Below are positions 31,312 to 37,508 of a stretch of DNA of 64,000 nt, piece after piece. The DNA comes from Hahella sp. KA22 (GTDB taxonomy: Bacteria; Pseudomonadota; Gammaproteobacteria; Pseudomonadales; Oleiphilaceae): assembly GCF_004135205.1 (NCBI RefSeq), contig NZ_CP035490.1:2373501-2437500 (forward strand). The letters are read 5' to 3'. The translations under genes and the position numbers were made by a program. Position 1 is the first letter of the stretch. The number at the start of each line of letters is the position of its first letter. Below the pieces are notes generated by a model that was not told the DNA's origin, did not search any database, and worked only from the letters and a program-made list of their open reading frames with translations.

Positions 31312-31752
31312 TTACGCAGTCGCGCGCTGCAGGCGGCTCATCTCGTCGTGACAGCGCTTCAAAGTGGGATAGATATCCTGCAGAGTGGCTTGAACGCCGG
31401 GGGCCTTCACTTCCTCGATGGCGTCGCGGACTTTTTCCAGAGTCTTGTCTTCGACTTCCTCCAGCTGCTCGATATACACATGCTCTGAATTATCCTTGAT
31501 GGCGGCCAGGATTTTGGCGTAGTGCTCACGCAGAATGCCGCCGAGAGTGTGTCCGGTCTCTTTTTCGCCTTTTTCGAAGACAATATAGGGCTGCAGCCGG
31601 CCTACTGCGCCTTCGCGAATGGCTGACATGCGTTCGAACACCAAACGCACTGCATTGCTCTTCACCTTGTCTTTGGCTTCGGTATAGAAGTCGATGCCAT
31701 CGTTAAGCACCTTTACCAGATCTCTCAAGCTGTTTGTTTCTGAATTAGTCAT
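31312..31752 (-). CDS. PA2169-family four-helix-bundle protein (DUF2383)
   Basis: A 146-aa, soluble, all-helical protein of the PA2169/DUF2383 family: NSLRDLVKVLNDGIDFY at the start, a Glu-rich middle and ETGHTLGGILREHY. The family has a ferritin-like four-helix shape and no established activity. AGGAG stands 7 bases before ATG at 31752 and 4 before ATG at 31755, so the second is preferred. A near-perfect sigma-54 promoter lies 63 bases upstream, and the operon just upstream encodes a sigma-54 activator. Likely a target of that regulator; this is inference. Confidence 0.88.
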   Translation of the reverse strand: MTNSETNSLRDLVKVLNDGIDFYTEAKDKVKSNAVRLVFERMSAIREGAVGRLQPYIVFEKGEKETGHTLGGILREHYAKILAAIKDNSEHVYIEQLEEVEDKTLEKVRDAIEEVKAPGVQATLQDIYPTLKRCHDEMSRLQRATA

Positions 31753-31817
31753 CATTGATCTCCTCAGTATTCCTTGGATCTACTTCTTGCGGGTTGTCCG
31801 CGGTTCACTAGTAGTAG

Positions 31818-31833
31818 AGCAACAGCTGTGCCA
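31818..31833 (-). promoter_or_regulatory. Sigma-54 (RpoN) promoter upstream of the DUF2383 gene
   Basis: The minus strand reads TGGCAC, five bases, TTGCT, matching the -24/-12 consensus TGGCAC-N5-TTGCW completely, with GG and GC 10 bases apart. The predicted transcript starts some 50 bases before the ATG at 31752. No enhancer site for the adjacent regulator was identified by eye. Confidence 0.8.
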
Positions 31834-31994: not shown

Positions 31995-33953
31995 TCAGAG
32001 TGAGCTTTTGGCGGGGAGCACGGCTGTCAGCTCGCCCAGAGAAACCGGCTTCATTAAGTGGTGCTGAAACCCTGCCTCTGAAGAGCGACGTTTATCCTCT
32101 GCATAACCGCTTAATGCAATGAGGCGGGCGTCTGCAAGGCCTTGGTCGCGAATTTTTCGAGCCAGACTGTAGCCGTCAGTATCGGGAAGATTCAAATCCA
32201 GTACGACCGCAGAAGGCCTTATTCTCTCCGCCATTTCCAGCGCTTCGGCGCCGTTTGCGGCGCAGTGTACGCGCCAGCCCAGGTGCTCCAGCAGGGCCGC
32301 GGTGGCGGCGCTCGCGTCCGCATTATCTTCCACCAGCAATAAGGAGGGCGACCTGGTTTGTGTGCTCGGTAGATGGCGCTCAATCAATGTGAATAGCTGA
32401 TTGACGTTGACCGGCTTGCTCAAATGATCGGTACAGCCGCTGGCCAGACAGCGTTCCCGTTCACCGCGCATGGTGGCGGCGGTTAGCGCCAGGACAGGCG
32501 TTTCGTGGCCGCGGCGACGCAGTTCGCGGGTGGCGGAGTGTCCATCCAGCACCGGCATATGCATGTCCATGATCACCAGGTCGATAGGGTTATCCGATTG
32601 CGCAGCCTCAGATACAATACGAACCGCCTCCGCGCCATTTTGCGCGTAACTGACTTGCGCCCCGGCGCTTTCCACCAGATGGCCGATCAGGCGACGGATG
32701 TCCGGCAAGTCATCGGCGACCAGCAGGTGACCCTGCACTTGATGGGTCCGCGTGGCATGGGGCTCCATCGCATCACCTGCTTCCAGGTCAGGTTGAATAC
32801 GTTTAACGCCTTCCAGCGGGCCGGGTTTGACGATAGCGGTGAAATCACTGCCTTCTCCAGGTCTGCTGCTCAAGCGGATGTCGCCGCCCAGTCGGTGCGC
32901 CAGCTGACGGCTGATGGCCAGTCCCAGTCCCGCGCCTTCGCCACGACGCATGCTGTTGGCGTAAACCTGGGTGAACGGCTGAAAGAGGCGCTTTTGGTCC
33001 GGAAGGCTGATGCCGGGGCCGGTATCCAGCACTTTGAACTGGACTTTCTCCTGCTCCTCTTCCTTGACCATCTGTACGCGTACGGTGACTTCCCCTTGTT
33101 CGGTGAACTTGATGGCGTTGCCGATCAGGTTCAGCAATATCTGTCGCAGACGAATAGGGTCAGTTTCAATATTTTCCGGCAGTGGCGAGTCGGCGATAAA
33201 GCTCAGTTGCAGGTTTTTATCCTGTGCGGACACCGCCATGAGAGAGTAAAGGTCGGCCAGAAATGCCTGCAGGTTGACGCGCACAAACTCCATTTCGAGC
33301 TTGCCTGCCTCGATCTTGGAGATGTCCAGAATGTCGTTGAGCAGGCTTAATAAATGCTGCCCATTACGTTGGACGATCTGCAGGTAGGACAGGTTGTCGG
33401 GCGCATTGTCCTGCGCGATGAGCAGCTCGGTATAACCCAGAATGGCTGTCAATGGCGTGCGCAACTCATGACTGAGATGGGCCAGGAACTCACTTTTGGA
33501 ACGGTTTTCCGCTTCCGCTTTCAGTCTTTCCAGCCTCTCCGTTTCCATCTCTCGGCGCGCCAGCGCATAACGGATGGATCTGGCCAAATGGGCGGAGTTG
33601 AGATCGGATTTCACCAGATAATCGACGGCGCCTCCACGAAGCGCGTCGGCGTCAAGGCGGCTGTCATCCTGGCCGGTCAGCATGATTATCGGGCCGTGAA
33701 AGCCCAGCTTGGGAGCCTCCCGTAATAGCATCAGGCCGTCATCCGGGCCTAAGCGATAGTCCATAAGACAGACATGATGTTCGTCTCTGGCCAGGGCGGC
33801 GCGGGCTATTTCCGCGTTGCTGGCCCAATCCAGCTCGAATTGCGAGGGCGCTATCTGCTCCAGGAGATCTTTGGCGATGATATAGTCATCTTCGTCGTCC
33901 TCCACCAGTAACAATTTGATGGGTGTGGGGAAGTTGGTCTGGTTCTCCGTCAT
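31995..33953 (-). CDS. Hybrid histidine kinase, REC-HisKA-HATPase-REC-REC
   Basis: A 652-aa cytosolic hybrid kinase without a membrane segment. Receiver 1 (about 10-130) has Asp65 in LMDYRLG. A HisKA domain follows with His162 in HLSHELRTPL, and then the ATPase domain with LNLIGNAIKF, DTGPGIS and GEGAGLGLAI. Receiver 2 has the acceptor Asp in VIMDMHMP and receiver 3 in VVLDLNLP. No HPt domain is present, so phosphate would pass to a separate carrier. It is the last gene of a five-gene minus-strand operon, 18 bases after the Rcp1-like receiver. Confidence 0.95.
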   Translation of the reverse strand: MTENQTNFPTPIKLLLVEDDEDDYIIAKDLLEQIAPSQFELDWASNAEIARAALARDEHHVCLMDYRLGPDDGLMLLREAPKLGFHGPIIMLTGQDDSRLDADALRGGAVDYLVKSDLNSAHLARSIRYALARREMETERLERLKAEAENRSKSEFLAHLSHELRTPLTAILGYTELLIAQDNAPDNLSYLQIVQRNGQHLLSLLNDILDISKIEAGKLEMEFVRVNLQAFLADLYSLMAVSAQDKNLQLSFIADSPLPENIETDPIRLRQILLNLIGNAIKFTEQGEVTVRVQMVKEEEQEKVQFKVLDTGPGISLPDQKRLFQPFTQVYANSMRRGEGAGLGLAISRQLAHRLGGDIRLSSRPGEGSDFTAIVKPGPLEGVKRIQPDLEAGDAMEPHATRTHQVQGHLLVADDLPDIRRLIGHLVESAGAQVSYAQNGAEAVRIVSEAAQSDNPIDLVIMDMHMPVLDGHSATRELRRRGHETPVLALTAATMRGERERCLASGCTDHLSKPVNVNQLFTLIERHLPSTQTRSPSLLLVEDNADASAATAALLEHLGWRVHCAANGAEALEMAERIRPSAVVLDLNLPDTDGYSLARKIRDQGLADARLIALSGYAEDKRRSSEAGFQHHLMKPVSLGELTAVLPAKSSL

Positions 33954-33971: not shown

Positions 33972-34427
33972 TTAATGACCGTGATTGGGCAATTCCACGA
34001 ATTCGACCCAGTAATGTCCCAGCGCGCGCATAAGGGCGACCAGTCCTTCAAAGGTCACCGGTTTGGTGATGTACGACGCGGCGCCCAGATCATAGCCGCG
34101 CAGCATATCCTGCTCCGCTTTTGATGTGGTGAGAATGACGACCGGCGTGCGTCGCAGCGCCGGGTCCGCTTTAATCTCCGCCAGCGCTTCGCGGCCGTCT
34201 TTGCGAGGCATGTTCAGGTCCAGCAGTATAATGCCGGGAGTCGGCGAGTTGGCGGGATCTTCAAATTCGCCTTCTCGACGCAGATACTGCATTAATTCAA
34301 ATCCATCTTTCACAAATCGCAGCTCGTTCAGCACGCGGCTCTCGCGCATGGCTTCCAGTGCGAGCTGTCTATCATCTTCGTCATCATCCGCCATTAAAAT
34401 GACCAGCGGTCTCTTGGTGTCAGGCAT
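33972..34427 (-). CDS. Stand-alone receiver protein, Rcp1-like
   Basis: A 151-aa single receiver domain of the Rcp1/CheY class: MADDDEDDR acidic pocket, phospho-acceptor Asp in LLDLNMPRKDG, Thr in ILTTS and Lys in ITKPV. No output domain. Rcp1-type receivers partner with phytochrome-like kinases, and this one overlaps the CHASE3 kinase gene by 8 bases, which suggests it receives phosphate from that kinase. Confidence 0.94.
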   Translation of the reverse strand: MPDTKRPLVILMADDDEDDRQLALEAMRESRVLNELRFVKDGFELMQYLRREGEFEDPANSPTPGIILLDLNMPRKDGREALAEIKADPALRRTPVVILTTSKAEQDMLRGYDLGAASYITKPVTFEGLVALMRALGHYWVEFVELPNHGH

Positions 34428-35922
34428 ATTGTTCAGGCTCCATTTCAGAAATAGGCGTATGCTGCAGCGGCAGGTTCACAATGAATGTGGCGCCTTCACC
34501 GGGGATACTTTCGGCGTTAATGGCGCCGCTATGGCGTTCAACGATGCGACGGCATACTGCTAGCCCTATGCCGGTTCCCTCGTATTCTCCGCGCTGGTGC
34601 AGGCGCTGGAAAGGGGTGAATATCCGGTCTTTGAATTTTTCGTCAAAGCCAATTCCGTTATCGGTGAAACGAAGCTCGCACCACTCCGTTTCCTCGCCTC
34701 CTTCCAGCAACGAATGTTGATAGCTCTTCACACTGATGGTGATTAGAGGCTTCTGATCAGGAGGAATAAACTTCAATGAGTTGCCAATCAGGTTTTGCAT
34801 CAGCTGGCGCATTTGCGTGGGGTCCGCGTCCAGGGTCGGTAACGATGAAGCCTTAATTTCGGCGCCGCTTTCATTGATGGGGATTTCCAGGTCATCCAGC
34901 ACTTCGTCGAGAATCTCGTTCAAATCCACTTGTGTGAATGGCTGCGCTTTGGTGGAAACCCGGGAAAATGAAAGCAGGTCGTTAATCAGGCGCGACATGC
35001 GTTCTGCAGCGGATTGCATGCGCCGAATATAATCTGCGCCGCTGTCTTCCAGTTTGTCGGCGTACTTTTGTTGCAGGCGGTCGCCAAACGCACGAATTTT
35101 TCTTAGCGGCTCTTGCAGATCATGGGATGCGACGAACGCGAAATCCTGCAACTCCCGATTGCTGCGCTCAAGCTCTTTGGAAAAGTGAGTCAGAACGGCG
35201 GTGCGTTCGGAGACTTTTTCCTCCAGCAGGTCATTCTCTGTCCGCAGAATTTCTGTAATGCGGGTGTGCTGGAGAAGATTTCTTTGCAGCAGGTAATAAA
35301 CGAAGCCGATCAACCCCAGGCTGGCCAGTGTGGCGGCCACCAGGGTGAAGATGGTTTCCCGCTGGTTCAAATAGGACTCGTGGCGTCGTTGCGCCAGCAG
35401 CGCATATTCTTCCGCCTCCATTTCCTCCACCAGCTTGCTGATGATGTCCATGAGGCGCTTGCCTTTGTCGGTATTCACGATTTCCGTGGCCGCCGCCACG
35501 TCGCTGTTTTTGCGCAGTTGGATCACTTCGCGCATTTCGCTGATCTTGCTTTGGGTGACCTGACGCAGGCGCAGGAAGCGTTCCTGCTGCCCTGGTATTT
35601 CCGAGTCAGTCGCCTGCAGCTGATTAAGGTAAATCTCCAGCGAATTCATGGCGTCATGGAAAGGTTCCAGATAGGCCTCGTCGCCGGTGATCAGGTAGCC
35701 CCGTTGACCGGTTTCAGCGCCTTGGATGGCCGAGAAGGTGTTCCTGATAATGCCGATCACTTGCAGAGTATGGGAGACGCTGCTCTCAATGCGCACCAAC
35801 TCGCGCATGGCGCGGTAGGAAGTGAGTCCATTGATGACCAGTAGCAACGCCACGGCGGCGAAGGCGAAACGCCAGCGCCGGCTCAGCAATATTGGACTGT
35901 GATCCAGAAGTCTGTTAGGCAT
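34420..35922 (-). CDS. CHASE3-domain histidine kinase, phytochrome-type catalytic core
   Basis: A 500-aa membrane sensor kinase when started at ATG 35922. Membrane helices near residues 16-36 and 193-213 flank a periplasmic CHASE3-like domain (GAETGQRGYLITGDE). A coiled linker leads to a HisKA domain with VASHDLQEPLRK and an HATPase domain with NLIGNSLKF, DNGIGFD and GTGIGLAVC. The start overlaps the stop of the HisKA mini-protein by 8 bases; the frame is open upstream to 36066, but that region is inside the mini-protein gene. Signal unknown. Confidence 0.93.
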   Translation of the reverse strand: MPNRLLDHSPILLSRRWRFAFAAVALLLVINGLTSYRAMRELVRIESSVSHTLQVIGIIRNTFSAIQGAETGQRGYLITGDEAYLEPFHDAMNSLEIYLNQLQATDSEIPGQQERFLRLRQVTQSKISEMREVIQLRKNSDVAAATEIVNTDKGKRLMDIISKLVEEMEAEEYALLAQRRHESYLNQRETIFTLVAATLASLGLIGFVYYLLQRNLLQHTRITEILRTENDLLEEKVSERTAVLTHFSKELERSNRELQDFAFVASHDLQEPLRKIRAFGDRLQQKYADKLEDSGADYIRRMQSAAERMSRLINDLLSFSRVSTKAQPFTQVDLNEILDEVLDDLEIPINESGAEIKASSLPTLDADPTQMRQLMQNLIGNSLKFIPPDQKPLITISVKSYQHSLLEGGEETEWCELRFTDNGIGFDEKFKDRIFTPFQRLHQRGEYEGTGIGLAVCRRIVERHSGAINAESIPGEGATFIVNLPLQHTPISEMEPEQYA

Positions 35923-36136
35923 TATCCGCATCCGTTGCGCTGGCGTTGACCAAGTCGTTGATGCGCGCGCTACAGCGTTTGCATTCTTCCAGTATGCGCT
36001 CCACGCACACCAGGATTTCTTCCTTGTCGCGATTGGTCTGAAGTTGGAGCTTGGCCAGCTCCGCATTCACTGAAATGCTGTTCAACGGATTGCGGAGGTC
36101 GTGCGCTAATTTGGCGATATCGGCTTCCTGGGTCAT
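35915..36136 (-). CDS. Stand-alone HisKA (dimerisation/phosphoacceptor) mini-protein, 73 aa
   Basis: A 73-aa protein consisting of little more than a HisKA helical hairpin: KLAHDLRNPLNSIS gives a full H-box with His12 in HDLRNP, and the second helix runs to residue 64. There is no ATPase domain, no receiver and no membrane helix. AGGA lies about 8 bases upstream of ATG at 36136. It begins 34 bases after the NtrC-type regulator gene and overlaps the next kinase gene by 8 bases, so it is clearly part of the operon. It could be a phosphotransfer carrier, a dimerisation partner or an inhibitor. The function is not known; it could also be a truncated kinase. Confidence 0.8.
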   Translation of the reverse strand: MTQEADIAKLAHDLRNPLNSISVNAELAKLQLQTNRDKEEILVCVERILEECKRCSARINDLVNASATDADNA

Positions 36137-36170
36137 AGGGGCATCCTGTCTCTTTTTTTGGGGAAATGAC

Positions 36171-37508
36171 TTATACGGGCGTTTCCGTGTTTTCATTCTC
36201 TCCATAGCTGTTCAGGCGGTTATAGAGGGTTTTCAAGCTGATGCCGAGCATGTCCGCCGCGCGGCGCTTGTCGCCATCCAATTGGGCGAGGGTGAGGGTG
36301 ATAAGCTCGCGCTCCATCTCCTCTATGGTCTTGCCCACCTGCAGTCCGGGGGAGCCTTGTCGCTCGCGGGCGAAAGGCGAGGCGAGATTGTCCGGCAGGC
36401 TCAGTTCGGATTGAGCTGGATCAGTCATAATGAACGCGCGATGAATAGCGTGACGCAGCTCGCGCACATTGCCTGGCCAGTCGTAATCCTGCAGTCGTTT
36501 AAGGTTGTTCTCCCCCAGCCCGAAAGCGGAGCCATTCTCTTCGTTCAGCTCCTGCAGGAAGCGTCTGGCCAATAGTGGAATATCTTCCCGGCGCTGCCGC
36601 AAAGGCGGAATCTGAATGGGGAATACGGCCAGACGGAAGTAGATGTCCTCACGCAGGCATTCGTCTTCCGCCAGCTGTTGTTGGGTGCGGTTGGTGGCTG
36701 AAACCACTCGGCAATCCACAGGAATTTCTTCGGCGCCGCCGACTCGGATGACTTTGTTGGTTTCCAGTACTCTCAGCAAAGTTGGCTGCATGTCGATTGG
36801 CATCTCAGTGACTTCGTCGAGAAACAGCACGCCGCCTTTGGCTTGTTCGAATAGACCGATTTTTCTGCTGACTGCGCCGGTAAAGGCGCCTTTTTCATGT
36901 CCAAACAGTTCGCTGCCGATTAGCTCTCGGGAAAGCGCGCCGCAGTTGGCCGCCACGAATGGCCCTTGAGAGCCCCCGGCGGCATGGATTGCGCGGGCGA
37001 CCAGTTCTTTGCCGACGCCGCTTTCGCCCTGCAGCAATACGTTGGCTCTGGTTTGGGCGACGCGCTCAATCATCTGGTAAAGCTCGCGCATGGCCGGCGA
37101 TTCACCGATCAAACTATTGAAGTGGCGGGGCGCGTCGATTTCCGCCTGTTCCGGGCTGGTCTTTTCGATCAGCGCTTTTATCTGCTCAATATCAATGGGT
37201 TTGATCAGATAGCTGATGTTGGGGCCGCAGACCGTTTTCACCAGTGATTTTACAGTCGGGTGGCCTGTGACGATGGCGATGTGGCCGGGTTGCTTGCGGG
37301 AGCCATTCAGAGCGTCCAGCACATGTAGACCGCTTCCATCAGGAAGCATCAGGTCAAGTAATACAATATCGAACTGATCAGCCTGCAGAATCGCGTTGGC
37401 TTCAGCGACGCTGGCGGCGGAGCGGGCGTCATGCCCCAGCATTTCTAGGAGTGTCCGCGTGGCTTGTACGAAACCTTCATCGTCGTCCACGAGCAATATA
37501 CTTGCCAA
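36171..37508 (-). CDS. NtrC-family sigma-54-dependent response regulator
   Basis: A 445-aa activator: receiver (1-115) with Asp52 in LLDLMLP, AAA+ domain with Walker A GESGVGKE (161-168) and the sigma-54 contact loop GAFTGA (207-212), and a Fis-type HTH at the C-terminus (DKRRAADMLGISLKTLYNRL). The start is TTG at 37508 with GAGGGA about 8 bases upstream. First gene of the five-gene operon. A sigma-54 promoter lies downstream of the operon before the DUF2383 gene. Confidence 0.95.
   Translation of the reverse strand: MASILLVDDDEGFVQATRTLLEMLGHDARSAASVAEANAILQADQFDIVLLDLMLPDGSGLHVLDALNGSRKQPGHIAIVTGHPTVKSLVKTVCGPNISYLIKPIDIEQIKALIEKTSPEQAEIDAPRHFNSLIGESPAMRELYQMIERVAQTRANVLLQGESGVGKELVARAIHAAGGSQGPFVAANCGALSRELIGSELFGHEKGAFTGAVSRKIGLFEQAKGGVLFLDEVTEMPIDMQPTLLRVLETNKVIRVGGAEEIPVDCRVVSATNRTQQQLAEDECLREDIYFRLAVFPIQIPPLRQRREDIPLLARRFLQELNEENGSAFGLGENNLKRLQDYDWPGNVRELRHAIHRAFIMTDPAQSELSLPDNLASPFARERQGSPGLQVGKTIEEMERELITLTLAQLDGDKRRAADMLGISLKTLYNRLNSYGENENTETPV

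Follow-up and report, generated by a model that had tools for sequence, protein, structure and literature searches.

Mini-HisKA gene and operon

The window, a 64,000-nucleotide stretch of the Hahella sp. KA22 genome (6.96 Mb, one contig), carries a small gene, referred to below as mini-HisKA, between the genes of an NtrC-type regulator and a CHASE3 sensor histidine kinase (Table 1). Its frame runs from ATG to TAA and its product carries His12 within the sequence HDLRNP; a second possible start, an ATG at 36205, lies upstream in the same frame. Residues 7-66 match the Pfam HisKA family (PF00512) with an E-value of 4e-12 and 46.4 bits (gathering cut-off 26.9), and no other Pfam family was detected in the protein at E up to 0.1. 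The first-pass annotation had described a 73-aa gene encoding an H-box and one more helix only, with its own ribosome-binding site, and this description holds: HisKA is the sole Pfam match, the AlphaFold2 model consists of two helices (see below), and AGGA stands 7 bases before the ATG, as read from the sequence only. The spacing given there is also correct. The NtrC-type gene ends at 36171, leaving a gap of 34 bases, and mini-HisKA overlaps the CHASE3 kinase gene by 8 bases if the kinase starts at the ATG at 35922 (the kinase has other in-frame starts).

A PF00512 search of the source genome returned 76 matches at E up to 0.001, and all of them except mini-HisKA, whose open frame is 98 aa, lay in frames of 362 aa or more. 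The HATPase_c domain by which a histidine kinase is recognised was found by Pfam neither in the window protein nor in 13 aligned members of its family (A3).

Table 1. Features of the mini-HisKA locus, given as positions in the window.
Feature	Position	Strand	Description	Basis
NtrC-type regulator	36171..37508	-	REC, sigma-54 AAA+ and Fis-type HTH; presumed phosphate acceptor	Pfam, alignment
AGGA, probable Shine-Dalgarno	36144..36147	-	7 bases 5' of the mini-HisKA ATG	Sequence only
Mini-HisKA gene	35915..36136	-	73 aa; ATPase-less DHp domain, phosphoacceptor His12	ORF, Pfam, AlphaFold2
CHASE3 sensor histidine kinase	34420..35922	-	HisKA and HATPase_c	Pfam, alignment
Single-domain receiver	33972..34427	-	Possible Spo0F/SdrG-like intermediate	Pfam, alignment
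Hybrid kinase	31995..33953	-	REC-HisKA-HATPase_c-REC-REC	Pfam, alignment
Sigma-54-like site TGGCACAGCTGTTGCT	31818..31833	-	Before the DUF2383 gene (31312-31755)	Pattern scan

The operon encodes two intact-looking kinases and five intact-looking receivers (Pfam, alignments), and the presumed phosphorylated Asp and the conserved Lys were kept in all five receivers across the aligned copies. The invariant residues were as follows: D8-D10, D52, T81 and K103 of the NtrC-type regulator (22 aligned copies, window included); H267, N377, N381, D421, G423 and G425 of the CHASE3 kinase (21 copies, window included); D70, T100 and K122 of the single-domain receiver, which we label Rcp-like (22 copies); and the presumed phosphorylated Asp65, Asp463 and Asp586 of the hybrid kinase (22 copies), which were placed by eye. 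No HPt match was found by Pfam in the hybrid kinase or in the other proteins of this operon. The operon is also devoid of an ATPase-only partner, both kinases having their own HisKA and HATPase domains (Pfam).

The whole window was scanned for the sigma-54 pattern with up to 2 mismatches, and five sites were found against a mean of 14.4, i.e. fewer than by chance. Of the five, the one before the DUF2383 gene was alone in being backed by a comparison, with a single congener: TGGCACAGCTGTTGCT is identical at L136, where the flanks keep 39 of 67 bases before the site and 49 of 62 after it. This site is a plausible target of the NtrC-type regulator, outside the core finding. Some genes near related operons resemble, by eye, those of small lipoproteins of the envelope, an outer-membrane barrel and an OsmY-like protein (L025 11810-12016, L026 12792-13307, L211 2845-3042 and 1967-2620), both L211 genes lying behind or at sigma-54-like sites. 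These neighbours hint at an envelope or general stress regulon.

Family membership and selection

Protein searches with mini-HisKA gave closely similar copies within the genus and, in the family, one copy at 52%. Matches were obtained in 18 of 151 genomes: 5 held small-frame members (own genome included) and the other 13 long frames. When the NtrC-type protein was used as query, Gilvimarinus agarilyticus (family f198 includes Gilvimarinus) and Paraglaciecola marina headed the best 80 of at least 591 loci, both with the identical five-gene order and with mini-HisKA genes of 79 and 71 aa, respectively. Within these best 80, small members were present only at L025 and L026, and three other loci gave weak matches (E 0.0025-0.0048) in frames of 179-240 aa.

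Profile searches were carried out on overlapping genome sets, all sampled inside one class. Small-frame members were present in 2 of 369 genomes of the class sample (9 with any match) and in 9 of 293 genomes of the order (13 with any match), the own genome being counted in both, in 10 of 197 genomes of a second order (11 places), and in 4 of 15 and 38 of 120 genomes of two families. With the window's own copy, the small-frame family comprises 59 places, 58 distinct ORFs and 55 distinct cores, and ORF lengths, counted from the first start codon, are 62-96 aa. The congener copy L004 is identical to L003, which shares its core with the window. Five divergent members scanned singly scored 17.9-26.5 bits, under the HisKA cut-off. 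The mini-HisKA profile gave similar scores to a 296-aa protein at L156 (31.5 bits) and to the full-length kinases L106 (39.0 bits) and L137 (37.9 bits), which belong to another family, and for this reason none of them is claimed as the ancestor of mini-HisKA.

Values of dN/dS were 0.047-0.134 in the 11 informative pairs of 17, and are imprecise in five of the 11 because dS was above 1; the uninformative pairs comprised one without differences, two without amino-acid changes and three that were saturated. The low dN/dS, together with the equal size and position of members from other families, excludes a chance ORF, which the survey of HisKA matches in the genome also rejects. The idea of a functionless remnant of a broken or truncated kinase gene, suggested by a HisKA domain without its usual partner domain, is refuted by the low dN/dS, the conservation and constant size and place of the gene across families, and the lack of any HATPase_c match in the proteins scanned. 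The mini-HisKA gene is genuine and conserved, and its operon is one for signalling.

Genomic linkage and exceptions

The first-pass annotation had proposed a search for homologues of conserved length and context, and such homologues exist: besides the narrow size range, an NtrC-type gene precedes mini-HisKA at 58 of the 59 places, the two being separated by -35 to 282 bases. A CHASE3 kinase homologue follows at 54 of 59 (by BLASTP; the CHASE3 domain was scanned in the window protein only), and the two genes overlap shortly at many loci. Mini-HisKA usually lies inside one five-gene operon, the receiver and the hybrid being present in the 21 loci read at full length (L218 counted, L208 of genus g497 set aside).

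Five places are without an adjacent CHASE3 kinase (L192, L201, L203, L218 and L173), and four of them are NtrC-linked. In genus g497 (L192, L201, L203) the NtrC-type gene is followed by mini-HisKA with no adjacent kinase genes, as read in 14 kb around L192 (as L208) and in ~1.5 kb each at L201 and L203. No kinase homologue was found directly after mini-HisKA in the 14 kb around L192, and the three g497 genomes yielded no hybrid orthologue, with partial matches only (best 39%, E 3.9e-86). In a search of 25 genomes, no hybrid was found at E <1e-100 in the 21 genomes without mini-HisKA; G1032, which has mini-HisKA, gave a hybrid match at E 5.9e-151. At L218 the gene order is NtrC, mini-HisKA and then directly the hybrid, with a 40% receiver homologue before the NtrC gene.

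L173 is a second copy in genome G917 and lies 33 bases after a REC-GGDEF gene, beside a divergent PAS-GAF-PAS-HisKA-HATPase-REC hybrid. By analogy, this copy may again occupy an HPt slot next to a hybrid, and the preceding REC-GGDEF gene (observed at L209 4667-5920) suggests that the module may also feed cyclic-di-GMP signalling.

The linkage was also followed from the regulator. In the order, 10 of 293 genomes had an NtrC match at E up to 1e-120, and nine of these (own included) also have mini-HisKA. The tenth, G521 (NtrC 49%), encodes in place of mini-HisKA a 296-aa protein whose middle part resembles it (RHDLNNRLNALQMNAEL); the ~140 residues after this part gave no Pfam match, and the gene adjoins the NtrC gene and a divergent hybrid with two terminal receivers. 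This protein may be a degenerate kinase. At L156 (5763-6653), an NtrC homologue and a CheB-CheR-PAS hybrid adjoin a 296-aa protein whose H-box is like that of mini-HisKA and whose C-terminal part is unannotated; this is possibly a ChpT/Spo0B-like protein. In the class sample, 3 of 369 genomes had an NtrC match at 1e-110: the own genome, G498 (with mini-HisKA) and G517 (44%), in which no mini-HisKA was found within 14 kb. Genome G005 has a further NtrC paralogue (54% identical) without a nearby mini-HisKA, which counts against full linkage. In three congeners without mini-HisKA, NtrC matches did not exceed 47% identity and a hybrid at E <1e-96 was absent.

Two kinds of irregular NtrC gene were noted. 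At L193 (G1097) and L200 (G1081), the NtrC gene before mini-HisKA appears as two separate frames, through either a real break or a sequencing error. In G005, a 65% identical NtrC gene is represented by one part on each of two contigs (L135, L162), both covering residues 228-397, an overlap that would fit either an assembly break or two genes.

Structural model

The AlphaFold2 monomer, built from a three-row alignment, consists of two helices (residues 3-34 and 38-72) with a mean pLDDT of 90.5. In a Foldseek comparison with the PDB, the first six matches were HK853 DHp domains solved with their regulator, and the ChpT-type phosphotransferases 4qpk, 4qpj and 4fmt were found at ranks 17, 32 and 38; the E-values were weak (best 0.081) and unrelated helical proteins were among the matches. 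A 13-member profile found nothing significant among the sequences of solved structures (best E 0.057). Mini-HisKA probably forms a homodimeric four-helix bundle.

Residue pattern

H12, R15, N19 and E26 are invariant in 58 of 58 ORFs, the count for His being biased because the family was gathered by similarity to His-containing members. An absence of homologues with the His, or relatives in which the gene is clearly a broken full-length kinase gene, had been named at the outset as evidence against the annotation; what was found is a constant His, low dN/dS and constant size, and the annotation is not refuted. Other kept positions are L18 (56 of 58), I21, K29 and C55 (55 each), A25 and L27 (54 each), C52 (52) and P17 (44).

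The acid at H+1 (Asp13 in the window protein) is present in 44/58 ORFs and 41/55 distinct cores, and is replaced in the other 14 by Asn, Gly, Thr, Gln, His, Ala, Lys or Arg. Asn at H+4 is present in 47/58 ORFs and 45/55 distinct cores, the remaining 11 having Lys, Ala, Ser or Gly. No member of the 58 lacks both, and the full H-E/D-x-x-N/T motif is kept in 33. Pro at H+5 is absent from 14 members. The kinases of the same operons carry Asp (21/21, CHASE3) or Glu (22/22, hybrid) at H+1, each with Pro at H+5. Changes were mapped on a tree of 52 NtrC partners, drawn when the family had 53 members (L173, having no NtrC gene, and the last five members were left out). The H+1 state changed at least seven times, counted irrespective of direction; H+4 changed once, all 11 non-Asn members forming one clade.

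Willett and Kirby found, for the HisKA kinases that they tested, that kinase activity alone requires the H+1 acid and phosphatase activity alone the T/N at H+4, with phosphatase mutants keeping phosphotransfer (PMC3510030). The same study reports that His is not required for EnvZ phosphatase activity and yet enhances this activity in EnvZ and CrdS, a CrdS His mutant being reduced in it (PMC3510030). Taken with the residue counts, these results indicate that the function shared across the family needs His, and neither H+1 nor H+4. A need for His beyond autokinase or phosphatase activity alone points, from natural variants, to phosphotransfer. Given the behaviour of the CrdS mutant, a phosphatase is not entirely at odds with an invariant His, and the 33 members with the full motif may yet act as substrates of a kinase or as phosphatases.

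Helix 2 carries a near-invariant C-x-x-C at codons 52 and 55, with Ala, Ser, Thr or Gly as replacements. By the geometry of such hairpins, the pair would lie close to where helix 1 bears the His, and may represent simple core packing. To our knowledge, a C-x-x-C in helix 2 is unusual for HisKA domains.

Comparison with known phosphotransferases

Spo0B, ChpT and PhyT resemble mini-HisKA in carrying the His in a two-helix DHp hairpin and in their linkage to response regulators. They stand between receivers in His-Asp-His-Asp relays (Spo0F-Spo0B, CckA-ChpT-CtrA and SdrG-PhyT-PhyR), the role that we infer for mini-HisKA. All three are described as degenerated or pseudo histidine kinases, the ATPase domain of PhyT being degenerated. 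Spo0B and ChpT have a C-terminal ATPase-like domain, for which the mini-HisKA family, ending after the second helix, has no room. With HMMER filters on and E-values up to 10 allowed, Pfam models of known phosphotransferases found no match in 13 members. HPt proteins such as YPD1 share a presumed role in multi-step relays with hybrid kinases and belong to a different domain family; a canonical HPt was rejected, as PF01627 matched none of the 13 members.

Genome surveys count stand-alone HisKA proteins that, like mini-HisKA, have neither REC nor HATPase; PMC4618731 defines these as phosphotransfer proteins, and the definition in PMC9953108 is similar. In the surveys this is a counting category, whereas mini-HisKA has a defined family, operon and residue pattern. 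Searches of the open PMC literature on DHp-type phosphotransferases, stand-alone HisKA function, the operon and the genera brought up no recognised study of the mini-HisKA family or its operon. ATPase-less HisKA proteins are a known, little-studied category, and the defined family, operon and residue signature appear to be new.

Proposed relay and alternatives

We consider it probable, with some room for doubt, that mini-HisKA descends from a HisKA (DHp) domain and works as a minimal histidine phosphotransferase, relaying phosphate from the receivers of the operon to the NtrC-type regulator. The CHASE3 kinase and the hybrid kinase would load the receivers (the single receiver and the C-terminal receivers of the hybrid), a phosphorylated receiver Asp would pass its phosphate to His12, and His12 would pass it to Asp52 of the regulator. 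The reaction may also reverse, in which case mini-HisKA would act as a phosphate sink. The phosphotransfer, its direction and its partners are put forward on comparative evidence.

The first-pass annotation had suggested that mini-HisKA may act like a HisKA-derived histidine phosphotransfer protein and receive its phosphate from a kinase encoded nearby. The first part is supported by the invariant His, the loss of the acid in several lineages, the linkage to the regulator and the adjoining hybrids without HPt (Pfam). The second has given way to loading from a receiver (Asp to His), which is likelier than direct loading by a kinase because the H+1 acid is absent in 14/58 and the CHASE3 kinase is not adjacent at four NtrC-linked places.

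The same tight linkage to the regulator gene would suit a phosphatase or phosphate sink that binds the phosphorylated NtrC-type protein and removes its phosphate; so would the Asn at H+4 in 47/58, the enhancement of this activity by His in EnvZ and CrdS (PMC3510030) and the first interpretation of PhyT as a phosphatase (PMC5898713). We regard this as unlikely, since one clade, in each of its 11 sampled members, has Lys, Ala, Ser or Gly at H+4 and since the His is invariant though, in EnvZ, not strictly required for phosphatase activity. A sink working by reverse phosphotransfer merges with the relay explanation.

Slightly less likely still is that mini-HisKA forms the acceptor half of a split kinase, in which His12 would be phosphorylated in trans by the ATPase domain of either operon kinase (CHASE3 or hybrid) before transfer to the NtrC-type regulator. 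Two HATPase domains are encoded in adjoining genes and 33/58 members keep H-E/D-x-x-N/T. In the SMART data, 1556 of 42417 HisKA proteins have no HATPase, and the same source interprets some as possible split kinases and reports a split EnvZ functional in vitro (PMC3591291). CheA3/CheA4 and the proposed HisKA/HATPase splits likewise place the phosphoacceptor on a separate polypeptide. Mini-HisKA differs in having no ATPase-only partner in its operon and in lacking the H+1 acid and the H+5 Pro in 14/58 each, both of which the neighbours' HisKA domains keep throughout; in addition, g497 has NtrC and mini-HisKA without an adjacent kinase gene (~1.5 kb read for two of the three genomes).

A non-catalytic binder, which would dimerise with or block a kinase in the manner of the inhibitor Sda, or act as an NtrC decoy, is very improbable. 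The protein is modelled as a small helical hairpin, and the short overlaps with the CHASE3 gene suggest coupled translation; such a binder, including the inhibitory dimer with the CHASE3 kinase first offered as an option, leaves unexplained why His, R15, N19 and E26 are all invariant on one helix, and the CHASE3 kinase gene is not adjacent at 5/59 places.

Beyond the relay itself, it is a long shot that no self-contained phosphotransferase derived from a kinase is smaller than mini-HisKA, and that it serves as a mobile module by which one-step regulators (NtrC-type, REC-GGDEF) become outputs of a relay, with the Cys pair making transfer sensitive to redox state or a metal. If this reading of the Cys pair were true, the relay would read redox besides the signals of its kinases.

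Implications

As a probable phosphotransferase of very small size, mini-HisKA offers a clear case that can be tested rather than a surprise of principle. If the proposed relay is right, a complete His-Asp-His-Asp relay would be encoded in one operon with a transfer protein of ~65-75 residues, and a DHp hairpin alone, without an ATPase-like domain, would be a natural phosphotransferase. The natural variants set the universal residues (H, R at H+3, N at H+7 and E at H+14) against those needed for autokinase or phosphatase activity only, and the protein is small enough to serve structural and rewiring work. The stand-alone HisKA class, merely counted in surveys, would then gain a concrete, testable role.
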